DNA of 64,000 bases. Source: Cytophagales bacterium WSM2-2 (GTDB taxonomy: Bacteria > Bacteroidota > Bacteroidia > Cytophagales > Cyclobacteriaceae). The translations under genes and the position numbers were made by a program. Positions 1,606-14,608 of the stretch are shown here, one piece after another. The notes beneath the pieces are model-generated. The model worked only from the letters and a program-made list of their open reading frames with translations. It had not been told where the DNA came from and ran no database searches. The number at the start of each line of letters is the position of its first letter. The stretch's first letter is position 1. The stretch spans positions 2,654,001-2,718,000 of the forward strand of contig BNHL01000001.1 of the NCBI GenBank assembly GCA_015472025.1, given 5' to 3'.

Positions 1606-1833
1606 ATGACTAAGATCAGGGATCCCAAGTTGCTGCAACAGTTTGGAAAGCATTTAAAAGAACTCCGTAAGCAAAAAGGCCTTTCGCAAGAAGAGTTAGC
1701 CAACGATTCCGACATACCCATAAATCAAATTGGCCGTATTGAAAGGGGTGAAATAAATCCTTCGCTGAGCACGCTAAATTCAATCGCAAAAGCCTGCCGG
1801 TTGTCGCTATCAAAATTCTTCGAAGGGCTTTAG
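1606..1833 (+). CDS. XRE-family helix-turn-helix regulator (75 aa)
   Basis: The whole protein is one HTH_3/XRE domain: KHLKELRKQKGLSQEELAND, then IPINQIGRIERGEINPSLSTL and LNSIAKACRLSLSKFF. This is the compact single-domain type common beside toxin-antitoxin, defence and mobile-element genes in Bacteroidota. It is transcribed toward the 3' end of the tniQ operon (convergent, 206 bp gap) and divergent from the YwqK-like gene. It probably represses its own divergent promoter region. Confidence 0.85.
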   Translation: MTKIRDPKLLQQFGKHLKELRKQKGLSQEELANDSDIPINQIGRIERGEINPSLSTLNSIAKACRLSLSKFFEGL

Positions 1834-2039: not shown

Positions 2040-3689
2040 TTAGGCTGCCTTCAAAAGACTACTTCGCCTTGAATTAAACTCTTGATAACTTTCAGCAAGT
2101 GATTTGATGTATAATTTAATGGTTGCATGCATAGCAATTTGAGTTCGTTCGCGTTTAGTTAGGTGTGAGGCGATCAGCATTACCGATATTTTTCGTGGAA
2201 TCTGTAATGATACTAGATACTGTTTTATGTCACGTAGTTTGGATTTGAATTCTCTCGTATTTGGTGATGAAGTCTTGTGTCTACCCCTGAAACGTCTGCT
2301 GAACTTAGCATTTATATGGAGCATCCACTTGGAGTCTTTTTTTAATAGCCAACGGTATTCGGTTTTCATAATTTTTGCGCTTTTTTTGATGGAGAAGAAG
2401 CCTGGTGAGTTCAATTCATTTTTCCAGCGCTTTCTCCGTTCATCACGCAGCTTGATGAACTTTGCATGCTCATTTTTCTCGTTTCTCACTTTTCGATTGC
2501 ATATTTTGGCAATTGTACGCCGGCGAATCCCAAATTCCATTTCCAATTTTCTAAATGAAAATCCCTTCCTCACTTTCGCACGAATCATGTTCTGAACAAG
2601 CTGCCCGTGGTCTTTTATGACGAGCTTATGTGCTGAATTAAGTTTGAGAGAGACTAAAAAATTCATGCCGCAATTCGGACATTTCACTTTTGCGCCGGGT
2701 TCGGTTTTGTTGTTGACATAGACGCGAATCAAGTGTTTATTTTCAATGGCTTGATCGAATTTTTCGCAGAATTTATTGCAGCACACTACCGTTGATAATT
2801 CATGTTTCAACGTTATGTCTGATCTTGATTCCAAGAACCGGCCGAGGAAAGCATAGTTTTGCGGATTATATGGATGCATTTTCCCATTGAAAAGATTATT
2901 TACAATAATTGGACGGGACCGTATGACTTGAGCGAACGAGATGTTACTGCCTTCTAAAAAGTCAATGTAATCGCTTACTAATAATTTATTCAGTGAATAA
3001 GTGTTTTTCTTTATATTAAGTAACCCCTTTCTCTGGGCGAGCTCATAAAATGAGGTTAAGTCAACGGAGTGAGATTTGTCTAGAATTGCCTCTAGTTTTT
3101 TTGCTCCGTCCAGCATGATCGTCGATGGCCGTGTAACTGACTCACATTTATAACCAAATTTTTTAAGATCGCATTCATAGTAGTGACGTACATTGTAAAT
3201 TTCACGCGGTACCCTCCAATTCTCTAAAAGACATTCATGTTTTGTGCAGACCTGATGAAAGGGAATTGTGTGATTAATGTGCCAAAAACTTTCGCTGTAC
3301 TTGGAAAGTTCTTCTTCTGCGCAAGAGCGACAATACGAGAATTCTGAGACATCTACATCGATTTTCACAAATCTCATTGACGAACCTCGCCCATACATCA
3401 TAAAGGAGTATAGTGCACGAGCAGCCTTTGCGTCCATGAATGCACTGTAGAGTGAATACAATGTGTGACTTATTAAAATATTTTCAGCATTAAGTAAGGA
3501 AATCTGCGCGATTTTTTTTGCGAAGTTTTCAAGGTCAAACGGCAATCTTTGATTAACCGGATGAGCGTAACTGTTGAAGAATGTCTTAGAGATATACTGG
3601 TAGTTCGACCCTGTATGCCGGCGGTGTCGGCAAATGAGAGAATAAAAACTTTCCTGGTTAAACGGTGGACTGAGAAAAGAAACGGTCAT
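2040..3689 (-). CDS. tniQ: TniQ/TnsD-family transposon targeting protein (second copy)
   Basis: 549 aa. The N-terminal TniQ domain carries the zinc-binding pattern C120-x2-C123 ... WH137 ... C148-x2-H151 (CRSC and CTKH motifs). A second Cys cluster (CCNKFCEK and CPNCGMNF) and a C-terminal TnsD-like half with a helix-turn-helix (FSFRKLEMEFGIRRRTIAKIC) and the EYRWLLKKDSKWM motif follow. TnsD proteins bind the attachment site and recruit TnsC. The ATG overlaps the preceding tniQ stop by ATGA, so the two are translationally coupled. At this length it resembles a DNA-binding TnsD rather than the short TniQ of CRISPR-associated elements. Its own target is unknown. Confidence 0.9.
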   Translation of the reverse strand: MTVSFLSPPFNQESFYSLICRHRRHTGSNYQYISKTFFNSYAHPVNQRLPFDLENFAKKIAQISLLNAENILISHTLYSLYSAFMDAKAARALYSFMMYGRGSSMRFVKIDVDVSEFSYCRSCAEEELSKYSESFWHINHTIPFHQVCTKHECLLENWRVPREIYNVRHYYECDLKKFGYKCESVTRPSTIMLDGAKKLEAILDKSHSVDLTSFYELAQRKGLLNIKKNTYSLNKLLVSDYIDFLEGSNISFAQVIRSRPIIVNNLFNGKMHPYNPQNYAFLGRFLESRSDITLKHELSTVVCCNKFCEKFDQAIENKHLIRVYVNNKTEPGAKVKCPNCGMNFLVSLKLNSAHKLVIKDHGQLVQNMIRAKVRKGFSFRKLEMEFGIRRRTIAKICNRKVRNEKNEHAKFIKLRDERRKRWKNELNSPGFFSIKKSAKIMKTEYRWLLKKDSKWMLHINAKFSRRFRGRHKTSSPNTREFKSKLRDIKQYLVSLQIPRKISVMLIASHLTKRERTQIAMHATIKLYIKSLAESYQEFNSRRSSLLKAA

Positions 3690-5491
3690 TTCAATTTTTT
3701 GTTAATAAGTGTTTCTGCACTAAGAGTCAGCCTACGCAAATTTGACTTTGACAATATTGCCGATCGACTCAAGCGAACATTGAGCTTTTCCAGCTCATTA
3801 ATAGAGATTTTGATTTTGCGCAGCTGATATGTCTCGCTATTCTCCATAACTGATTCGATAAAGCGCATGCTTTGTAGAAGTTGACGTGTCGCCCTTTTTG
3901 TTAAACTGAATTTAGCCGTAGATATTGATCGTATCATCAGGGATTTGCTTATCCGCCTTGGGTAATTGTGAACAAGGAGTTCATAATTGTTTTTTAATTC
4001 TTGGAGAATCTCTTTGTCAACTTCGTTCCAATTTATAGATGATTGAATGGTTTTCGTTTTTCGAGCAAACAACTGGTTTGTGTTTAGCAGCCAATCTTTG
4101 TCGTTTAGGTATAACCATCGATAAACTTTAGGGTGAGAGTTTCGTACTTGCATCACCGCATCACCTAAGTTGGATTCTAAGGACTCGGTCCAACTTGTTC
4201 TTATTTTTTTTCGCTTTTGTTCAAATGAAATTGTCGATGGAAGACTCAAAGGCCTTTCTCGTAGGCTCCGTACGGTGCGGATGTCTACCCCGAGAATCTT
4301 TGAAATCTTATATGAAGTCAAATTCTCGGTTAACAGCTGATCGAATTTTTTCATCCAGATAGGCCCATAAGTCACAATCTTGGTAGTTTGTACTCGATTA
4401 CCCGGGCTTCCTGAATTGACCTTGAAATACTTCTTATAGATCATTCCACAACTGCATGTGAAGTAGGATACCTCTTGCTTTAATTTGGTGTCATATTTTA
4501 AGAAGTAGTTCGAAATCACCGGCTGTAGAAAATGACCAGAAGCTTTGTTAAGACACGGCCAAGGTCCGCTTCCATAAGTTGGACGTGGATTGATTGGCTC
4601 GAGAGTCTCAAGAGCAATTTGGAAAAAGAGATGCCTTAGAGGATTCAGGATTTTTTCTGGCTTGTGTATTAAGGGTTCAATATATTCCCGCAGAGTAATT
4701 TTACCTGCACCTTTGAAGATCAGCTCTTCGACATTTTGTTTGCCGAAACGAGAGATTATTTTTTCGATAAGCAAGTCATAGTTAATGAAGCTGCCTCGAT
4801 TGTACCCTAGTTCAAGTATTCGTGAATTGTATTTGAGATTTTCGATTGATAATTTTTTTCCGTTGAGTAAATCCGAAGCTTTTTCGCTGATAGTTTTAAT
4901 TAAGTCATTTTTATTTTCTTGAAATGATAGCTCACCGAGCTCTCTTGGTTCGCGTGGAAGAAATAATTTGTAAGGACTGTGAAATGGAAAGGGTAAGCGA
5001 AAAAACTTCAATTGATAATTATGCAAGGGACAAACATAAATTGGCAGTTGATGAACCCTGTGCCAATAAATCTGGAGGTACGTTTGGAAGTCGTCAATGG
5101 CACATTGAGGACAGTACTTTGGAAATTCGTTAACGGGCACGTCAGATCCGTTAATGCCAATAGTTGAGCAGATGTTTGCCGCTCCTTGTCCACGGAGCTT
5201 CTTTAAGACTTTTTGGTCGGTTCCGACGGCGATGAAATTTCTATAAAATGGAAATGGAGTAAGTTGTTCTATGATGTCTTCTATACTTAAAGCCAAAAGA
5301 TGATAAGTATTAAAGTTAAATTCATTTAGATGTTTTGGAAAAAGGATTGGTAGAGTGTTTATTCTAACGGTGTCTCCAAAGACATCGTCAAGCAATTGTC
5401 GGGAGCTTCTAGCCCCACTCAGCACGCCATATCTTAGTACAAGACTTTTGAAGATTTCATCAGGCAATGGCTGGGGGAAGAAGTGTACCAT
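3686..5491 (-). CDS. tnsD: TniQ/TnsD-family transposon targeting protein (first copy)
   Basis: 601 aa. The TniQ domain has C127-x2-C130, then YWHRVHQLPIYVC with C154 and H157, the classic zinc site. Another Cys pair (TCSCGMIYKK) precedes a C-terminal TnsD region with a helix-turn-helix (TSYKISKILGVDIRTVRSLR) and the diagnostic VYRWLYLNDKDWLL motif near residue 470. This is the best candidate for the protein that recognises the chromosomal attachment site and loads TnsC. Its ATG overlaps the tnsC stop (TAATG), so both are likely made in step. Length is slightly above E. coli TnsD (about 508 aa). Confidence 0.92.
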   Translation of the reverse strand: MVHFFPQPLPDEIFKSLVLRYGVLSGARSSRQLLDDVFGDTVRINTLPILFPKHLNEFNFNTYHLLALSIEDIIEQLTPFPFYRNFIAVGTDQKVLKKLRGQGAANICSTIGINGSDVPVNEFPKYCPQCAIDDFQTYLQIYWHRVHQLPIYVCPLHNYQLKFFRLPFPFHSPYKLFLPREPRELGELSFQENKNDLIKTISEKASDLLNGKKLSIENLKYNSRILELGYNRGSFINYDLLIEKIISRFGKQNVEELIFKGAGKITLREYIEPLIHKPEKILNPLRHLFFQIALETLEPINPRPTYGSGPWPCLNKASGHFLQPVISNYFLKYDTKLKQEVSYFTCSCGMIYKKYFKVNSGSPGNRVQTTKIVTYGPIWMKKFDQLLTENLTSYKISKILGVDIRTVRSLRERPLSLPSTISFEQKRKKIRTSWTESLESNLGDAVMQVRNSHPKVYRWLYLNDKDWLLNTNQLFARKTKTIQSSINWNEVDKEILQELKNNYELLVHNYPRRISKSLMIRSISTAKFSLTKRATRQLLQSMRFIESVMENSETYQLRKIKISINELEKLNVRLSRSAILSKSNLRRLTLSAETLINKKLK

Positions 5492-6837
5492 TATCGAAGC
5501 GTGAATATTTCGGAGATATCAGGAATAATTCCGTTCTCTTTAAAAATGCTGTATATTTTATTTGGTGTTTCGTAGTTTCGAGTAAGATCAAGTAGTTCTG
5601 ATTTTTGTACGGATTTTCTATTTCCATTCTTTCGCTGTGCTGGGCTTTTTTTAACTTTCGGATTGCCCTCCTGCTTCTTCGTCGAGTCATCCCTAACTCC
5701 GTCCTCAATTTTTTCAATCCTAAGGAGATCTGAGAATTTACTTAGAATTTCAACGTTGTAATTAATAATGCCGTACATGACCAAGTTGGTGGTTGAGAAC
5801 AAGTTTTTAGCAACAACCGCCAAGTCTCTTTGCTCAATTATGTCCTTTCCAGAATGGATGCAAACTTTCTGGACTTCAGAGTGCAGCATTTTCAACATTC
5901 TGGGAACCCCTGCGCAGAGATCATAGTAAGTATTTTTGATCTCATCAGTTAAGGGTTGGCCAGGATTTAAAACATTGCAATTCCACAAGTGCTCTATGAA
6001 AAAACCCCACACTTCATCTTTTTCAAAACGTTGCCACTTGTATCCCTGTGAACGTGTTGCCAGTTGGAAATTTCCACAAAGTATTTCTTCGACATCCAGA
6101 GAACCAAGAAAGACAAAAGGAACTCCAACTCGATTAGTTAGATATTTGATGAATCGCAATGTTAATTCGCTGGGGCCAGCCTTGGATTTGCGTAAGTCTT
6201 GTAGCTCGTCCACAACGATGGTACCGATCATGTGGCAGATAACTTTTTTCCGGACTTGCTCCAAAAGTTCCCATTCTGTACAATTCTGAAATTGCGTCGC
6301 GTATTTGGACCCAATTGCGAGATCCAGTTCTTCGAAAATGGCTTTACATAGTTCTTTTCTCGATCCTATGTGGGACGCTTCCACCACTATAATTGGCACT
6401 TGTTTTACACCAATTGATTGATGAACAATTTTCCGCGGAAATAATTTTAAGATCTTTTTTAGCACAGTTGTCTTTCCAGTGCCAGCAATACCCGCCAAGT
6501 ATGAGCCAAAGACTGTCTCTTGAGTCATTATATGATCAGCCATCATTCTTTCGAAGTTTTCTTCGGTGATGCCTTCGCTAAGGAGTTGCTGAATTAAATT
6601 ATCCGGTGTGCGAGTTCGCAGACTTTCCACCATCTTAGAATAAACTCTCACGAAGAAATAATAGTGGTCAGGCAAGGCTATAAAAAAATCAGTTATAATG
6701 CGTTCGGCATTTTGAATTTTAGAACCATCAGAAGAATCTGGAGAGAAAACTGGATTTTTAGAAATGAATTTAGAGAACGCCACCTTATCCAACATAGGCG
6801 GTAAACTTGAAATGAAGATATTTTCGTTAGAGTCCAT
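5491..6837 (-). CDS. tnsC: TnsC-type AAA+ transposition regulator
   Basis: About 448 aa from the ATG giving MDSNENIF; a TTG six codons earlier is possible. It carries Walker A GIAGTGKTT near residues 116-124, Walker B TIVVDELQD, and a sensor-like VFLGSLD. The family polymerises on target DNA, connects TniQ to the TnsAB transposase and provides target immunity. The C-terminal tail (about 70 residues) is basic and low complexity (KKQEGNPKVKKSPAQRKNGN), possibly the segment that contacts TnsA or DNA. The start overlaps the tnsB 3' end by 11 nt, as expected for an operon. Confidence 0.93.
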   Translation of the reverse strand: MDSNENIFISSLPPMLDKVAFSKFISKNPVFSPDSSDGSKIQNAERIITDFFIALPDHYYFFVRVYSKMVESLRTRTPDNLIQQLLSEGITEENFERMMADHIMTQETVFGSYLAGIAGTGKTTVLKKILKLFPRKIVHQSIGVKQVPIIVVEASHIGSRKELCKAIFEELDLAIGSKYATQFQNCTEWELLEQVRKKVICHMIGTIVVDELQDLRKSKAGPSELTLRFIKYLTNRVGVPFVFLGSLDVEEILCGNFQLATRSQGYKWQRFEKDEVWGFFIEHLWNCNVLNPGQPLTDEIKNTYYDLCAGVPRMLKMLHSEVQKVCIHSGKDIIEQRDLAVVAKNLFSTTNLVMYGIINYNVEILSKFSDLLRIEKIEDGVRDDSTKKQEGNPKVKKSPAQRKNGNRKSVQKSELLDLTRNYETPNKIYSIFKENGIIPDISEIFTLR

Positions 6838-8911
6838 TTTGACGCAGTTGTTCAATGAAGCTTGGCATTTTTAAGGAATCCTTTGCAGGTGCTTTCGAAA
6901 TTGCGGCCCCCTTTGGCGCATGAATTTTTTTGGCGAATGGCCCCTGTTTTTTATAGTGAGTTTTGTCAACCGCACGAGTAGAATTCGCGCTTTTAATGTC
7001 GACTGTTCTTCCGTTTGCATTTTTTCTTGCTATTGCGCGTTGAATTATGCCCTCTTGAAATTTAATTTTTTCTGCTGCCGCAGTTAGTCGATCTGGCTCG
7101 GCTAATCGTTTTTTAACACGACGTTTGTCTCGGTTAAGCATCAATTCCCAAAATGATCGCACGTGGACGTCATTTTGAATAGGTTTTAATTGATGAAATG
7201 AATTCTGATAACGGAAGTATACTTGGGAAGTGTCTGACGCGTCAAACGATAATGAGGCCTTGTGTCTTTTTCCTCCAAATCTCATTTCATTAAAAGCCGT
7301 TAAGCCATCTTCTGTGACAGGTGTCCATTTGTACCCCTGAAAGAGAATACCTCCTTTGTCAAATGAGCAATCTTTTTGTTCTAATAGTTTTATTCTGAGT
7401 TCTTCTGGATTCTCATAAAGTAGAGACTCAAGATTATTGTCGATACCGAAATTCCAGATGTTTAGTGCTGTTGGATAGAGTTCACAAGCTTCCATTTCTT
7501 TAGTTAGAGGATAACCTTCAATTGGTTCGTGTTTAATAAAATAGAGAATTTCCTTCACCATTATTGCAAGAATCTCCTCATAGTTAAGAACGGCCTCAAG
7601 TCTTGCATCCGGTGAAATACGTGGCGAATCTTTTTTATTAACAAGACCATATCCCTCGAGAGTGCCTGCAATTTTTTTCAAGAGTTTACCAATATGACGT
7701 TCAATAATGCTTTTCATATCAGGTCTGAAACTCTCCGCATTATCCACTTGAATGTGAAGGTTGTTTATGACTGATTTCGCCTTGGGACCTAAGAGCAGTC
7801 CTCGGTCTGCAAATATTCTAGCGGCCAGATGCTCTACTGGCCAATCCGCTGCGTTCATGTCGTGAATGCCTAATGACCTGCACCATTTTTCCTTATCGGT
7901 TACGCAATTTACCATCGTCAATGATGCAGTCTCGTAACTTGCAGAGTCTGGAACTAAGGAGATTCCCATCGGCATTGATGAGAATGAGTCGACCATCAGA
8001 AATAACGTGAGGCGTCCGATGTATGTATTTGGGATAACCATCGAAAGCGAGTGAGTATCATCTTTCGTGCTATCAAATTGTGCTTCGGAACCCGGTCCGA
8101 AAATCATTTTCCTCGCACTGCCGGTAAGACTTCGATAATCTTTGTTGAATCGAATTTCGCCTACTGCATCGAGCTTGGATTGTTCACTGAATTGGATTTT
8201 TAGTCCCCAATGAAGGAACTGTTTAAACGTTGGGTACTTCTCTTTGCCGAGGTAGTGCTTCGTATAGAATTTGTCATAGGCTTCTCTTTGTGCGGCATGA
8301 TTATTTTTGACCTTATGTTTCCGATAAAATTTTTGAATACGCCTTTTGTCTTCCCGTGTAAGCGACATTTCATGACCTGATTCATACTGAGGCTTTCGTC
8401 CAAGGCGTTTATTTTTTACTTGGCGCTCTTTACCAGCGCCACCTGAATTTCGGTAGTTGGGGAGAAGCCCATTATTCACTTCGCCTGAAGCCTGATATCT
8501 TAGAACAGCCGATATTACCTTATACTTTGTAATTTTTTTCTTTTGCCTTGTTTCGTCATCGACCTGACTCCTCTCTTTAATTATCTCGGCCGCTTTTAAT
8601 GCAACCCACTTCTTATCATAACACTTCGGTTTAGTATTAATGATCGTAGAAATCAAATCCAGTCTTTCGTCACGAATATTTTTATCTGAGTCGGAGATAT
8701 CATCCTCGTCAGTAAAAATTTTAAAAGGATCAGATTTTTGAAGCTTATGAGTGCTGATCATTTCTTTGAATGCCTCGTGCTCTACCCAATGCGGACCAGA
8801 AAGACGCTCGCCCTTATTGTTTAAGTTTATATAGTAAGTGTAATCGTAATCTTTGTAGAGCTCTCGCTTGTATGAATTTGTTTTTTGCTCGTTGTAGATG
8901 CGGTAGCTCAT
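6827..8911 (-). CDS. tnsB: TnsB-type DDE transposase
   Basis: 694 aa, close to E. coli TnsB (702 aa). The RNase H-like catalytic core shows D280 (AQFDSTKDD), D369 (IFADRG) and E404 (SIIERHIG), spaced almost exactly as the TnsB triad. The N-terminal third contains DNA-binding helices that should recognise the AATAAAGT sites at the transposon ends, and the basic C-terminal tail (APKGAAISKAPAKDSLKMPS) is the usual TnsC contact region. It cuts and joins the 3' ends of the element. tnsA ends 4 bp upstream. Confidence 0.95.
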   Translation of the reverse strand: MSYRIYNEQKTNSYKRELYKDYDYTYYINLNNKGERLSGPHWVEHEAFKEMISTHKLQKSDPFKIFTDEDDISDSDKNIRDERLDLISTIINTKPKCYDKKWVALKAAEIIKERSQVDDETRQKKKITKYKVISAVLRYQASGEVNNGLLPNYRNSGGAGKERQVKNKRLGRKPQYESGHEMSLTREDKRRIQKFYRKHKVKNNHAAQREAYDKFYTKHYLGKEKYPTFKQFLHWGLKIQFSEQSKLDAVGEIRFNKDYRSLTGSARKMIFGPGSEAQFDSTKDDTHSLSMVIPNTYIGRLTLFLMVDSFSSMPMGISLVPDSASYETASLTMVNCVTDKEKWCRSLGIHDMNAADWPVEHLAARIFADRGLLLGPKAKSVINNLHIQVDNAESFRPDMKSIIERHIGKLLKKIAGTLEGYGLVNKKDSPRISPDARLEAVLNYEEILAIMVKEILYFIKHEPIEGYPLTKEMEACELYPTALNIWNFGIDNNLESLLYENPEELRIKLLEQKDCSFDKGGILFQGYKWTPVTEDGLTAFNEMRFGGKRHKASLSFDASDTSQVYFRYQNSFHQLKPIQNDVHVRSFWELMLNRDKRRVKKRLAEPDRLTAAAEKIKFQEGIIQRAIARKNANGRTVDIKSANSTRAVDKTHYKKQGPFAKKIHAPKGAAISKAPAKDSLKMPSFIEQLRQNGL

Positions 8912-8915
8912 AAAT

Positions 8916-9674
8916 TTATTTCAGTATAGAAAAGCTGGACAGTGGCATTGACGGATTGAAGGGTGCATAGTAATCAAAGACGATTCGTTTTCCAGCGCAG
9001 AGCTGTTTAAAAAGGCTCAGGCCATCTCCGCGGGTAATTCTGAGTTCGTGTGATATTTCTGCATTGACCTTGGTCAGTGATTTCTTGACGTCATGAAATT
9101 GCTTTATCATTTTGAAATAGTCATTCTCCATTTCTTTTTTTATAAATATCAAATTCCTGAGCTCTCTGATATTTGCAATTAGAATGTCCGGTATGTCCTT
9201 GTTTGTTATAAGTTTCCATCTTGCACCAAAAAGTTCGGAACAAGCTTTTTCAAGTTGGAGTTTGGCAAGAATTCTTTTATTGCTCAGGGCGCTAATCTCT
9301 TTCACTGAAATTGCTAGCGGGCTTTGATTCTCGAATTCAACCCATAAGTCAATTGTCATTACTTCGCTCTTCCTGTCTGGACTAATAGGATGTTTTATCC
9401 CATACTTATTCGCAAGAAGTTTGGTGGTGTTTAAATCCAGTGGGAACTGCTCTTTCAGGTCAACAACTCCTTCCGCCATTTCTGCGATGAAAATTAGATT
9501 TGCCTCGATAGTGGACATTGCGTGAAAAGTCCTGCCTTCGAATAGTCTTGAAGGTATCTTCGCTTTCCGACCATAGCCGCCAAAGTCGTGAGTTTGGTGC
9601 CAGGGAATCCAGGTCGCCTTTGAACCCGTGCCGCGACCCTGTTTAAATCTTCCAGCGTCAGTTATTTTACCCAT
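8916..9674 (-). CDS. tnsA: TnsA-type endonuclease subunit of the transposase
   Basis: 252 aa from the ATG giving MGKITDAGRF, preceded by AAAGGATT; a longer reading would add 29 atypical residues. Catalytic residues of the restriction-endonuclease-like fold are present: E57 (MSTIEANL), D109 (VMTIDLWVE) and K125 (ISVKEI), matching TnsA E63/D114/K132. TnsA cuts the 5' strands so that the element leaves by cut-and-paste rather than by cointegrate. It is the first gene of the tns operon, divergent from the XRE gene at 9880. Confidence 0.94.
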   Translation of the reverse strand: MGKITDAGRFKQGRGTGSKATWIPWHQTHDFGGYGRKAKIPSRLFEGRTFHAMSTIEANLIFIAEMAEGVVDLKEQFPLDLNTTKLLANKYGIKHPISPDRKSEVMTIDLWVEFENQSPLAISVKEISALSNKRILAKLQLEKACSELFGARWKLITNKDIPDILIANIRELRNLIFIKKEMENDYFKMIKQFHDVKKSLTKVNAEISHELRITRGDGLSLFKQLCAGKRIVFDYYAPFNPSMPLSSFSILK

Positions 9675-9764
9675 AATCCTTTTTTTCGCTACTTCGAAAT
9701 TTTTGCTTAGTTTTGGTTTATTCCAAAACAAACAAAGACATAGCTGAGGCCTTAAAAACACACA

Positions 9765-9862: not shown

Positions 9863-9880
9863 TGGTCTCTTAAAAGACCA
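9863..9880. promoter_or_regulatory. 18-bp palindrome overlapping the xre start
   Basis: TGGTCTCTTAAAAGACCA has perfect 6-bp arms (TGGTCT/AGACCA) around a nearly symmetric centre and ends on the first base of the XRE start codon. Position and symmetry suit an operator bound by the XRE dimer for autoregulation. The transcript would then start very close to or at the ATG. Confidence 0.5.
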
Positions 9881-10257
9881 TGTATTCAAGAAGAATTATT
9901 GAATTGCGTTTAAAACGAAATTGGACGCAAACACAACTCGCACAAAATTCCAAAATACCGCAGCCTATGGTGGCCAGGTATGAAAATGGAACCACACCTT
10001 CAAAAAAGAATGTAAAGAAGCTTGCGGAAGCTTTCGAAATTCCTGTCGAGGAATTTCTCATTATGAAGACGCCTAAGAACCATTCAAGTTTACCACTGCA
10101 GTCATTTGATTTAAGCAAAGCGTGGAATGAGATTAAGAAACTTTCCAATGAGGATAAAATGAGAATCAAAGACTTTATCAATATTCTTTTGGAAAGAGAG
10201 GAGGACCGCGAGAAGTTGAAGACCTTTGAAAGAATACTCAATAAGAAATCACAATGA
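9880..10257 (+). CDS. XRE-family regulator, probable controller of the tns operon (125 aa)
   Basis: The N-terminal HTH_3 domain (residues 3-57: IIELRLKRNWTQTQLAQNSK, IPQPMVARYENGTTPSKKN) is followed by a C-terminal helical region rich in Lys and Glu (residues 75-125), likely for dimerisation. It is divergent from tnsA and convergent with the Gabija-type helicase gene. XRE proteins in this position in other Tn7-like elements control transposition or cargo genes, so control of tnsABC and itself is the likely role. Direct evidence is limited to the two inverted repeats in the shared upstream region. Confidence 0.85.
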   Translation: MYSRRIIELRLKRNWTQTQLAQNSKIPQPMVARYENGTTPSKKNVKKLAEAFEIPVEEFLIMKTPKNHSSLPLQSFDLSKAWNEIKKLSNEDKMRIKDFINILLEREEDREKLKTFERILNKKSQ

Positions 10258-10389: not shown

Positions 10390-12279
10390 CTATTCAATTT
10401 CGAAACCCAGATGCTTTATTTTTTCGATGTATTGATTGTTTTCAATTTTGGGAATGGCCCATATCAGCAAATGCTTTGGCCTTGAGCTTGCTACATAGGC
10501 GAATCGCACATATTCCTTTTCCTCTGCAATCTCGGTGAGCCAATGTTCAAAATAACCACCTTTACTTTTCTTATCCTTTGCCGAGACTACTAATACTGCA
10601 TCTAACGTTTCCCCTTTAACATCGTGAAATGTTGTCATTCTTATTTTTTCAGAGTAGGGATATTGACACACTCTTAGTGTGTCAATAACAAGTTTTTGTG
10701 CAGAACCACTAGGCGACATGATTTTTGTTTTAACGGAGCTCCAGTCATTAACGGGCGAACGAAACTTAGCCCAATAGCCTTTTAAAAAAACCTTGAAATT
10801 TGCTGCCCATTGAGACCAAGTTAGTCCTGTAAATGGAGGACTTACTGTAGCGTCAGCGCAAACACTTTCGATTAGATCATAAAGTTGGTTTCTCCATTCA
10901 ATTTGATTGTAACCCTTGGGAGTATATTGATGTTGGTGGTTTCCTTTTCCATTGTATGCTAACATTGAAATTGATTTGCCAATTTGTTGTAGAGCGTTTT
11001 TCATGTCTTGTCCTGTCCTTGGTGTATTTATCCAACAGTTCAGTCCATTCGCAAATATTTCCATTTTCGAACCACTAAATATAGGCTGGTTTTTGAACCC
11101 AGATAATGTTGTGTGGGCTCGCGCAAGAATGCAACTTTTGTTAATGTCGATTTTTTTATCAGTCTTTAAAGTGATGGAATTGATATGGTTTACATGGTCA
11201 ATAAGTTTTTGAGGCAATTGCGGGAGGGTTGCGCCAGTATACTCCCAAAGCAAGCAACTTTTAGATGATATTTCTTTTTCCACTCCAAGTATAGCCTGAG
11301 GAGCGTTTCCAGTATTATATTTTTCTAGCGACATTGATACGTTGACGATACTTTGGTTGCTTCTGAAATTTTGCGTCAGGGCTTTTTTAGTTAGTTTATT
11401 ATCCGAGATAAAGTCATTTATTTTTTCGATGTATACTTTTTTAAATTCATAGATGGATTGGTTGTGGTCTCCCACGAAATGAATGATTGTTCCGTTTTTT
11501 ACTAATAGTTTCAAAATCTCAAGCTGATTGTTTGATAAGTCTTGACATTCGTCAATTATGAGCATAGGAAACCGCTTAACTAAATTTTGTAAAATTCCTT
11601 GATTACCTTTTAAAAAATAAAAGCACAAAAACTCAGCATCAGCATATGTTGTGAGTCCTGATGTTAGAAAAGCTTTCTTATTCTCCCTTAGCTTATCTCT
11701 TACAGGTCCTGGTATTGTTTGGATAGCCAACGTTCGACTTTGTGATTGCAGTTCAGGAGGATCTGAACATTCAAAGTAATAATCATTCACCCAAACATCT
11801 TTATAGCTTGGCTTCTGAGAAATGATCGTTTTAAATGGATTTAAGTAATCGTATCTCTCTTCACTGTCGATAAGGCGGTAGCTTTTGTCTTCATCTGTTC
11901 CGGAAAATGCAGTTGATTTGTGAGCAAATGGATGCAAGACATACCCATGTAACCATGAGTCTATAGTACCAATAAAATGCGGATGCTGAGTTGCCTTTAC
12001 TCCTCCAAATAATTTTACCCTATCAGTGATTTCTTTAGCCGCGTTTTTTGTAAAACTTAAAATGGCGATGCCTGAAAAAGGATTTTTCCAAGTGGAGATT
12101 TCATACGCTGCCTTTATTCCCACGACTTCAGTCTTTCCGCTTCCAGGGCACGCACTCAAATAACATGGATCATTAGTAGGATGGATAATAAAGTCTAGTT
12201 GCTCGTCTGTTAGGTCACGATCTAATTTGGCGAGTCTAGACTTGACTAACAATATTTTATCCTCCGTAGTTAGCAGCAT
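10390..12279 (-). CDS. gajB: UvrD-like SF1 helicase, GajB of a Gabija-type defence system
   Basis: About 630 aa from the ATG giving MLLTTEDK, 4 bp after the gajA stop; a start 25 codons upstream would overlap gajA. Superfamily 1 motifs in order: Walker A CPGSGKTEV (residues 44-52), Ia ILSFTKNAAKEI, II LIIDECQDL (243-247 DECQD), III FVGDHNQSIYEF, IV NFRSNQSIV, V TTFHDVKGETLDAV and VI FAYVASSRPKHL. In Gabija, GajB senses DNA ends or nucleotides and works with GajA to degrade phage DNA. It is longer than the described GajB (about 494 aa), with extra sequence between motifs IV and V. A general repair helicase is the alternative, but pairing with an OLD nuclease argues for Gabija. Confidence 0.85.
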   Translation of the reverse strand: MLLTTEDKILLVKSRLAKLDRDLTDEQLDFIIHPTNDPCYLSACPGSGKTEVVGIKAAYEISTWKNPFSGIAILSFTKNAAKEITDRVKLFGGVKATQHPHFIGTIDSWLHGYVLHPFAHKSTAFSGTDEDKSYRLIDSEERYDYLNPFKTIISQKPSYKDVWVNDYYFECSDPPELQSQSRTLAIQTIPGPVRDKLRENKKAFLTSGLTTYADAEFLCFYFLKGNQGILQNLVKRFPMLIIDECQDLSNNQLEILKLLVKNGTIIHFVGDHNQSIYEFKKVYIEKINDFISDNKLTKKALTQNFRSNQSIVNVSMSLEKYNTGNAPQAILGVEKEISSKSCLLWEYTGATLPQLPQKLIDHVNHINSITLKTDKKIDINKSCILARAHTTLSGFKNQPIFSGSKMEIFANGLNCWINTPRTGQDMKNALQQIGKSISMLAYNGKGNHQHQYTPKGYNQIEWRNQLYDLIESVCADATVSPPFTGLTWSQWAANFKVFLKGYWAKFRSPVNDWSSVKTKIMSPSGSAQKLVIDTLRVCQYPYSEKIRMTTFHDVKGETLDAVLVVSAKDKKSKGGYFEHWLTEIAEEKEYVRFAYVASSRPKHLLIWAIPKIENNQYIEKIKHLGFEIE

Positions 12280-12283
12280 GGTT

Positions 12284-14161
12284 TCAATTTTTTGCTGTGA
12301 GGTTAGTAACCCACAGAATTGAATTTTCAATGTACTCGGGAATAGCAAATTCAAGATCCTTATCGTTTGTTAAACGGTAAGCTAGTTTTTGAGCAAATTC
12401 TCCCTTTGCCTTTTTTATAAGGGACAGAAAAGCTAAGCACTCTTCCGCCTTTTCAGGCACAGGCACTTTTGTCCAGTCCTTTTTGGATTTTTCATCGGCT
12501 TCCATGGCATTCGCTACCATATTATTATAACCTTCGAAAATAATGCGGTAAAAAATTTGAAGATTATTCCCTTCTAATGCTAAATCGTACTCGAACGTTT
12601 TAAGGTTTGTAAAAATTCTACAGTTATTCGAGTCATTTTTTACTAGCTCCTCAGCATAGGCTTTACTGTGCGGATTTCCACACTCACAAGGACTATCCGC
12701 CGTTGGTTTTGTTTCTTCCACTTTTTGCGGATCACAGTCCGTGATCCCGGCGCACCGAATCGGTATTGAAATTACCCCTGGTATCTGATTTCCAGCTTCG
12801 TCTAATTTGTATCCCTGAAATAATTGCATGAAATGCCTGAAATAGATGCCGTTTAAATTGATAATCGAAACTCCAAAATCTTCTAGCGACTTTGGAGAGC
12901 TTGTTTTGTCACTTGTGTGTTTCTGAATTACGCGCCGCGATAATTCTTTCAGGACTAAAGCTTCCGCAATACCTTCAACAAATAAAATTCCCTTCGCGAA
13001 GAACAAAGTTGATTTAGTTATGTCGAGCCAACGTTCGAGAAAAAACAAGCTTTCATCTTCGAGTGAACAATCAGCAATCAGACTGGCGACAGGATTTTTA
13101 CTGTCGTTCACCGTTATTACATTTAATGAATTCAGACCCGATGAAGAAGTAATGGTAGCGGAGTGAGTTGTTATGATAATTTGAATTTTGGTTGCCGTCG
13201 CTTGGCCGCGTAAATACTGTAAAAGTTTTATTTGAAGTTGAGGGTGTAAATGTGCCTCCGGCTCTTCAATCAATAGAATTTTGTGTTTCCTATTTTCGGT
13301 TTCTAGGACGTCCAGTTCCGCTAGCACGGTTGCCAAATAAAGGATGTTATTGTAACCTAAACTATTTTCTGTGATGTCTCTAAATAATTCAGCTCTCGTT
13401 GACTCATTAATTTTTGGATAAAAAAGGAGCCTCAATTTTTCTACGATCCGGTCAAAATTCACTTCCGAAAATTGAATTAGAGAGTCTTGACCTAAAACGG
13501 TCCCCAGACTTTCTTTCAAATATTTTTTTATTGATGTGTTGACTGATAAGATCGTTGGATCTTTGAGAAGCTCCGCGTTAAAGGCCTCAAAATCTGTTTC
13601 GATTTTATGTTTCGGATCTCCCTTCTTTGGCTTTTCCTTTCTAAAAAGTCGCGAAAGTCTAGAACCACGATAGGCCTCCAGTTTGCTTTCTGCATCTCGA
13701 AGGGGCGGTAAATAAATGCAGTCAATTGCATTTACGAGCTCCCATTCAAAAATTCCTGATATCGATTCGCCTCCCCAAGTGGTGTGGTCAAATCTTCCTC
13801 TGCTATTGGTTTTATTATCAATTTTTTTATTCAGATATGCTTTTGTGTTGTAGGACGCATCAAGCCAAGGAAGAAAAGCAACTTGTTCCGATTCGTTTAA
13901 TGCTGCGAATGTACCCTTTACCTCAATACTTTCTGCGCTCCCGTCTCGAACCGATTTGTCAATTGGGCGATGAAAATCAGATTCAGATATTCCAATTCGT
14001 CCAAACTCATCTTCGTTCAATAGTAGCCTGATGGAGTCAATGATCGCTGTTTTACCGCAACCATTTTCACCAATCAAAACAGTCAATCCATTATTGAATT
14101 TGATTTTGAATTCTTCATTGAAAACTTTGTAGCCTTTAATCCGGATTTCAGAGAGGAACAT
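12284..14161 (-). CDS. gajA: OLD-family ATPase/TOPRIM nuclease, GajA of a Gabija-type defence system
   Basis: 625 aa. The ABC-type ATPase half shows Walker A GENGCGKT (31-38), a signature-like SLGYNNILYLA (267-277), Walker B LLIEEPEAHLHP (296-307) and the switch histidine in TTHSATI (331-337). The C-terminal TOPRIM nuclease begins at LFVEGIAEA (E396) and continues with ITDCDP (D475, D477), the metal-binding acids. GajA is the nicking nuclease of Gabija and assembles with the helicase next door. Length is close to described GajA (about 578 aa). The pair forms one operon whose upstream region reaches to the transposon terminus, so it is cargo at the right end. Confidence 0.88.
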   Translation of the reverse strand: MFLSEIRIKGYKVFNEEFKIKFNNGLTVLIGENGCGKTAIIDSIRLLLNEDEFGRIGISESDFHRPIDKSVRDGSAESIEVKGTFAALNESEQVAFLPWLDASYNTKAYLNKKIDNKTNSRGRFDHTTWGGESISGIFEWELVNAIDCIYLPPLRDAESKLEAYRGSRLSRLFRKEKPKKGDPKHKIETDFEAFNAELLKDPTILSVNTSIKKYLKESLGTVLGQDSLIQFSEVNFDRIVEKLRLLFYPKINESTRAELFRDITENSLGYNNILYLATVLAELDVLETENRKHKILLIEEPEAHLHPQLQIKLLQYLRGQATATKIQIIITTHSATITSSSGLNSLNVITVNDSKNPVASLIADCSLEDESLFFLERWLDITKSTLFFAKGILFVEGIAEALVLKELSRRVIQKHTSDKTSSPKSLEDFGVSIINLNGIYFRHFMQLFQGYKLDEAGNQIPGVISIPIRCAGITDCDPQKVEETKPTADSPCECGNPHSKAYAEELVKNDSNNCRIFTNLKTFEYDLALEGNNLQIFYRIIFEGYNNMVANAMEADEKSKKDWTKVPVPEKAEECLAFLSLIKKAKGEFAQKLAYRLTNDKDLEFAIPEYIENSILWVTNLTAKN

Positions 14162-14432
14162 AGTCCAATAATTTTAGTCTTACGATCAATCTTCATTAAA
14201 TTTTCAGTGGCTATGAAATGTTGGGCGGGATACTGGTAATTCATAGAGTCACAGTTATAACCAAAATCCTAAGTTCGTTTTAAATACCGCCAAAATCAAC
14301 GGGGTTTTTCCCGATATGTAATGTTGAGTTATTCAAGACTCTTTCAAACTGTACTCTTAAACGCGGACTTCGTGTTATTAAATTGTGGTAATTACGATGA
14401 ACCCGTTCACTAAAATTTTTGGGAATTTGAAA

Positions 14433-14506
14433 ACTTTATTGTTTGCCTTCTTGGTAGGCTGAAGAACTTTATTGTGAAGCTGAAAAAACTTTATTAGTAA
14501 GCCACA
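14433..14506 (-). repeat. Right terminus of the Tn7-like element with three TnsB-type sites
   Basis: Reading inward from 14506 on the minus strand: TGTGGCTTACTAATAAAGT forms the terminal site (14488-14506), followed by CACAATAAAGTTCTTCAG (core 14466-14473) and ACAATAAAGTTTTCAAA (core 14433-14440). Core spacings are 22 and 33 bp. E. coli Tn7 ends begin TGTGGGCGGACAATAAAGT and repeat ACAATAAAGTCTTAAAC at 22-bp intervals, so both the terminus and the internal sites match established TnsB-site structure. The 5-bp host flank next to it is GCTGG. This is the strongest evidence for where the element ends. Confidence 0.85.
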
Positions 14507-14608
14507 GCTGGTTACAAGTTTACGGTCCGAATTTCGTAAAAATTACAGACACAAACCTATGCCGCCTTGACTTTGAAGAGACTAAGTTAATTTGATCCAA
14601 GAAGGGGA
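14507..14608. other. Host flank between transposon end and OmpA-family gene
   Basis: About 100 bp of host DNA separates the transposon terminus from the stop codon of the OmpA-family gene. I see no tRNA, hairpin terminator or open frame here. It may contain all or part of the attachment site read by a TniQ/TnsD protein, possibly together with the conserved 3' end of the OmpA gene. The first five bases (GCTGG) should be one copy of the target duplication. Confidence 0.6.

Follow-up and report, generated by a model that had tools for sequence, protein, structure and literature searches.

A Tn7-like operon ending in two tniQ genes

The window, the whole 64,000-nucleotide stretch analyzed from Cytophagales bacterium WSM2-2 (genome G000), carries an operon in the order tnsA-tnsB-tnsC-tniQA-tniQB, with the tniQ pair last (Table 1). 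TnsA, TnsB and TnsC are encoded in one operon with a TniQ-domain protein, as in Tn7-like elements (TnsB being assigned by homology), and two tniQ/tnsD genes lying with tnsC are the arrangement of a dual TniQ-TnsD locus. D280, D369 and E404 of TnsB are invariant among six aligned TnsBs, and we assign these residues as the probable DDE triad. The operon is flanked by two XRE/HTH_3 genes; locus L044 likewise has a similar XRE gene next to its operon (6008-6370).

Table 1. Features of the tns operon and its surroundings (positions in the window)
Feature	Position	Strand	Remarks
Second small XRE/HTH_3 protein	1609..1833	+	74 aa; beyond tniQB
TniQB	2040..3689	-	549 aa; full-length TniQ/TnsD, the second of the pair; TnsD match weaker than in TniQA, zinc motif present
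TniQA	3686..5491	-	601 aa; TnsD-like, proposed homing selector
TnsC	5491..6855	-	AAA+ ATPase; AAA_22 and TniB matches
TnsB transposase	6827..8911	-	Homology (42% identical to the TnsB of the G064 element); no Pfam match
TnsA endonuclease	8916..9761	-	PF08722 and PF08721
XRE/HTH_3 protein	9880..10257	+	Pfam; divergent from tnsA; possible operon regulator
Cargo GajB helicase (Gabija)	10390..12354	-	PADLOC GajB E 6.5e-174
Cargo GajA OLD-family nuclease (Gabija)	12284..14161	-	PADLOC GajA E 6.2e-220
tnsA-side element end	14432..14506	.	Three TnsB-type repeats AACTTTATT at 14432, 14465 and 14487; terminal CCACA
5-bp target site duplication GCTGG	14507..14511	.	Twin at G000:C1:2602668-2602672, outside the window

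The element is 65,834 bp long and runs from G000:C1:2602673, 51 kb to the left of the window, to window position 14506. Its ends read TGTGGAGAACTAATAAAG and TGTGGCTTACTAATAAAG, with GCTGG beside each, and both ends have three predicted TnsB-type repeats. When 124 kb of its own genome was searched, AATAAAGTT repeats were found in threes at two places only, one at 14432-14495 in the window and one 51 kb beyond its left edge. Putative TnsB-type site arrays at the ends and a 5-bp target duplication are again features of Tn7-like elements, and all five elements that we read end to end have matching ends and 5-bp duplications on both sides. An initial placement of the ends at TGTTTG... and TGTAAC... 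gave no clean duplication and was superseded by the TGTGG ends with the duplication GCTGG.

A Gabija pair (GajA and GajB; window 10390-14161) is located between tnsA and the right end; a passage in Benler et al., 2021 names Gabija among frequent Tn7 cargo. The cargo to the left includes transporters, two TonB-dependent receptor-like proteins and, in large number, two-component proteins, among others. A repetitive 2226-aa protein with a Por secretion tail (L003 12922-19602) is also part of the element's cargo. The left part has 56 ORFs of at least 100 aa (six frames, many overlapping), and 36 left-cargo ORFs were scanned with Pfam. The sequence-only reading of the window had seen no Cas gene in view, and Pfam likewise matched no Cas family in the window ORFs or in the 36 left-cargo ORFs outside the window; a crude scan of the whole element revealed no array-like repeat. 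Within these scans, the element lacks the Cas effectors and array that define a CRISPR-associated transposon. TnsE, which Tn7 carries, was not found in the G000 element either: a TnsE profile built from six proteins that follow TnsD in single-TnsD relatives recovered its two positive controls, both among those six, but matched nothing in any dual element, five of them complete and one partial; for G000 the search took in all ORFs of at least 60 aa across the 65.8 kb.

Both TniQ proteins are full length and distantly related

The two proteins pass the Pfam cut-offs for the TniQ domain (TniQB 52.7 bits, TniQA 58.7 bits; cut-off 27) and for the TnsD domain PF15978 (TniQB 52 bits, TniQA 188.3 bits; cut-off 32.4). 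Compared with solved chains, TniQA has a sole match, the TnsD of Tn7 (8glu, E 1.2e-18). The reading frames overlap by 4 nt, and the proteins are 19% identical, which excludes a recent duplication. They account for all TniQ matches in the 5.55 Mb genome. Two full-length genes, neither of them short (601 and 549 aa) and both encoding the zinc motif, had been proposed from the sequence alone; we found both ORFs intact and open across 2040-5491, and the motif C-x2-C...C-x2-H is invariant in an alignment of 19 TniQ/TnsD proteins. A C-terminal YRWL motif had also been proposed and is present, but its spacing had to be corrected from x(2) to x(3), giving YRWL-x(3)-D-x(2)-W[LM], and L and W alone are invariant across the 19 proteins. 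AlphaFold models of the two proteins made from two-sequence alignments were not usable (mean pLDDT 37 and 43).

Related elements occupy two home sites

Searches with TnsB gave matches in 15 of 390 genomes across the family, in 4 of 62 in the genus (two of them only weak), in 4 of 17 in the genus of G604, in 4 of 390 in the order and in 2 of 395 in the class. A scan of named genomes returned one locus, the G064 contig, and no TnsB relatives were found in viral contigs. With a TniQB profile, 3 of 345 at the phylum level were matched, the third (G1240) through the N region only. The plasmid records matching TniQB numbered 41, all below 60% identity, with 15 at 21-30% among the matches listed.

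Six elements have two TniQ proteins: 000 (the element in the window), 064, 604, 594a, 594b and 588, the last two being near-copies. The elements 000 and 064 are inserted at an hmgA-like gene, and the other four at attTn7 beside glmS. Elements 604 and 594b end 24 bp past the glmS stop with the duplications TGAAT and AAACC, respectively, and 588, read across two contigs, also lies 24 bp after the glmS stop with a matching duplication. The elements 594a and 594b are in tandem in a single glmS site, where AAACC is present three times (G594:C1:591867-694360; L115/L114/L045/L112/L113/L039). An MFS gene considered as a third attachment site turned out to be the far flank of attTn7. Since relatives are found at two sites (two elements at hmgA, four dual elements at glmS), the outcome that would have counted against the sequence-only reading, all relatives at one site, did not occur. 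The insertion-site mapping that this reading had called for bears it out in part: relatives use two sites, but each dual lineage has one home site and carries both proteins.

The relatives 310, 539 and 556, which have a single TnsD and no TniQB, adjoin glmS, and TnsE_C was matched in the protein after TnsD in all three single-TnsD relatives scanned (310, 369 and 539). TnsE of related elements is a plasmid-seeking protein. TniQB follows TniQA in four of the six duals and precedes tnsA in two; in four of the six it occupies the operon slot that is held by TnsE in the single-TnsD relatives. For 369 and 536, the glmS genes are followed by TnsB-type repeats.

We also noted other arrangements. Just inside the glmS-side end of 594b is a stretch resembling the right end of the 604 element, and 604 itself has a second TnsB-type repeat array ~250 bp inside its glmS-side end (L111, G604:C5:441812-441870), perhaps the end of an older element. 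G490 (L124, L038) has an element with a TnsE-like protein, a free glmS site and its own site off the contig end. G612 (L046, L122) has a single TniQA and a short 161-aa TnsA, ~82 kb from glmS. In G1240 (L131), which belongs to a different family, TnsABC has a TnsD-domain protein on either side, one of 606 aa and a second of, as read so far, 551 aa; this second frame is still open where the contig stops, and the assembly has thus probably cut off its TniQ domain. G685 (L132 6132-14871) has two divergent sets back to back, which we label Tn7/Tn5053-like, one with a short 342-aa TniQ.

The home site of two dual elements is the 5´ side of an hmgA-like gene

The tniQ-side end of the G000 element is 27 bp (22 plus the 5 duplicated) before the ATG of the gene for a 397-aa HgmA_N protein, which we call hmgA-like because the protein falls far below the NCBIfam hmgA cut-off. 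In G064, of the same genus (contig JAFDYV010000006.1 of the MAG Bacteroidetes SZAS-64), an element of 29,782 bp with the same five-gene operon and the duplication GTTAG lies 29 bp (24 + 5) before the start of the orthologue. Both ends of the G064 element read TGGGG, not TGT (L011 10629 and the far end). The hmgA-like gene is present in 39 of the 40 genus genomes searched. In the 28 of 30 loci that were readable, the first codons are conserved and the DNA 5´ of the ATG, compared by eye, varies, and the sequence recognized is thus most likely in the coding start. Insertion just before the start codon would separate the gene from a promoter located more distally.

The far flank differs between the two elements, with an OmpA/PD40 gene in G000 and an S41 peptidase gene in G064. 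Among 16 genus regions read, which are part of the 39 genomes with the hmgA-like gene, that S41 gene is near hmgA in 11 and within 300 bp in 7; in one of the 11, L094, its frame is broken in two. The G000 right flank was not found beside hmgA in a DNA search of 30 loci, including that of G000 itself, over at most 1.5 kb to either side, so no empty site for the G000 element was seen. Reading 420 bp past the glmS stop showed this site to be unoccupied in G000 and G064 alike, and the G000 element is at hmgA, not downstream of glmS as for Tn7. Literature searches pairing Tn7 with hmgA or homogentisate brought up no such attachment site in the search listings.

The denser TnsB-site array faces the target

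In all five complete elements, the more closely spaced TnsB-type array, located with site patterns hand-chosen for each element, faces the target. At glmS this array is on the tnsA side (spacings 21/21/21, 21/21 and 22/22), and at hmgA it is on the tniQ side (19/20 in G000 and 20/21 in G064). The spacings at the opposite end are 70, 44 and 25/44/24 for the glmS elements, 22/33 for G000 and 22/22 for G064, such that the contrast is slight in G064. Where the Peters review (PMC11406308) treats element ends, the att side is described as variable among Tn7-like elements and the end with overlapping sites as appearing nearest att, the dense array beside the attachment site being a tendency and not a strict rule. 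G000 conforms to the tendency (19/20 on the hmgA side, 22/33 on the other), and its dense array facing hmgA agrees, on that description, with hmgA as the recognized flank. Because the att side varies in the same account, the reversed orientation is variation of a kind already described.

TniQA tends to track the insertion site

The TniQB proteins of the six elements form one clade apart from TniQA and the single TnsD proteins (100/99; long branches flagged), so the phylogeny proposed earlier as a check does separate the two copies by descent. Element 604, located at glmS, groups with the hmgA elements in the TnsB tree (100/99) and the TnsC tree (100/98). A clade of the four glmS duals is rejected by TnsB (AU p 5.7e-8); with G612 added, AU p is 0.00097 for TnsB and 0.025 for TnsC. 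In the TniQA tree, 604 is found with the glmS duals (80/85); the alternative of 604A with the hmgA proteins is not rejected (AU p 0.17), and the swap therefore depends on a single, modestly supported event.

One member of the tree group termed glmS, 490, comes from a genome with a free glmS site and was left out of the seven glmS-type TniQA/TnsD proteins; these seven include 369 and 536. When each of the seven was left out in turn, 88-100% of the glmS-type invariant columns were kept in the C region, compared to 61% in 000A and 50% in 064A, and G612A keeps 68%. For the N region the values are 80-95% in the glmS-type proteins, 69% in 000A and 65% in 064A. Given that the N region is also lower, part of the loss is general divergence; 000A and 064A have drifted throughout, more in the C half. 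In the C region the two share only 30%. For the TniQB C region, 000B gives 33% identity with 604B (from glmS) and 22% with 064B (from hmgA), with a 95% interval for the difference of 3-20 points, and no difference between these comparisons was seen in the N and middle regions. The TniQB tree rejects none of three groupings (AU p 0.16, 0.36 for 000B + 064B and 0.39 for the glmS-site TniQBs). As judged from these sequence comparisons, TniQA tends to follow the insertion site and TniQB is not visibly linked to it. No insertions attributable to TniQB were found.

These comparisons bear on the suggestion of the sequence-only reading that one element has two fixed sites, one for each copy, which was not borne out: glmS is free in G000 and G064, and only TniQA shows a link to the site. 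In one form of this idea, hmgA would be read by TniQB, and TniQA would have read glmS formerly or be kept in reserve for it. In its favor, the TnsD profile matches both copies, much of the glmS-type signature is gone from TniQA in the hmgA elements, as relaxed constraint would also give, and a grouping of 000B with 064B is not rejected. We nevertheless consider it unlikely, since 000B is nearer in the C region to the TniQB of a glmS element, the four duals at glmS also carry TniQB, and glmS stands unoccupied in both hmgA-site genomes.

The other suggestion of that reading, a pair acting together, here as a hetero-oligomer of TniQA and TniQB that selects the home site, is in our estimate also unlikely. 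The genes are co-operonic, overlapping here, and the two proteins occur together in all six duals, yet the position of tniQB in the operon is variable, 310, 539 and 556 occupy glmS without TniQB (though with a TnsE-like protein), and TniQB shows no link to the site. Very little speaks for TniQB as a decaying, functionless duplicate. It is true that 604B lacks the second zinc ribbon region and the TnsD match, and that 064B and 000B are the longest branches of the TniQ tree; against this, TniQB is an open ORF of 477-610 aa in all six duals, though pairwise identity among the five distinct copies is low even in the N region, at 26-36%. With the ORF open in every dual, a copy degenerate across the family, the other outcome that would have undermined the sequence-only reading, was not encountered.

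Discussion

With moderate confidence, we favor the interpretation that this is a complete Tn7-like transposon in which TniQA homes to hmgA and derives from glmS readers, while TniQB is an older, separate selector serving a second pathway. TniQA would bind the conserved 5´ coding sequence of the hmgA-like gene and, via TnsC, would place the end with the dense TnsB sites 22-24 bp (plus the 5-bp duplication) before the start codon. It would derive from TnsD-type selectors reading the glmS 3´ end, with glmS the presumed ancestral site and hmgA the derived one. TniQB would represent an older lineage kept in the slot where sister elements carry TnsE. From this slot, its retention and the absent link to the site, we infer that it most likely directs a second pathway, to mobile or other DNA, independent of the home site. 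Only tentatively do we extend this to a class of full-length, protein-only second selectors, founded by TniQB, that would do the job of TnsE or reach other targets without TnsE or CRISPR, and in one branch of which the first selector would have switched from reading the glmS 3´ end to reading the hmgA 5´ end and the operon would have turned round relative to the target-proximal end.

The hmgA-site and glmS-site elements with their related transposases are natural pairs for finding which portion of a TnsD-type protein determines its DNA target, and TniQB is a protein-only candidate for a second Tn7 pathway. Dual TnsD loci have already been published, and the element is ordinary in kind; what is unusual is that its two selectors, both full length, descend separately, that no TnsE was found and that its home site precedes a start codon. 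In type I-B1, I-B2, I-D and parE-site I-F3 CASTs, as outlined in the Peters review (PMC11406308), one TnsD homes to the chromosome and a second TniQ serves the other pathway. The element proposed here would likewise have a homing TnsD plus a second TniQ; unlike those CASTs, it showed no Cas gene or CRISPR-like array in our scans and has a second TniQ of full length. Faure et al., 2023 (PMC10293859) counted 998 dual tniQ-tnsD loci, "two tnsD genes" included, and in their description one copy is usually substantially smaller, with apparent in situ duplication and few distantly related pairs. Like the loci so described, this one has two TniQ/TnsD genes beside tnsC, but both proteins are at least 549 aa, they are 19% identical and the second copy is one lineage over six elements. 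With Tn7 and the glmS-site TnsD+TnsE elements of the same family, the element shares TnsABC, a TnsD-like selector, TnsB-type arrays and a 5-bp duplication. It differs from them in that no TnsE was found, the target is the 5´ side of hmgA, and it is the end downstream of the tns operon that adjoins the att gene.
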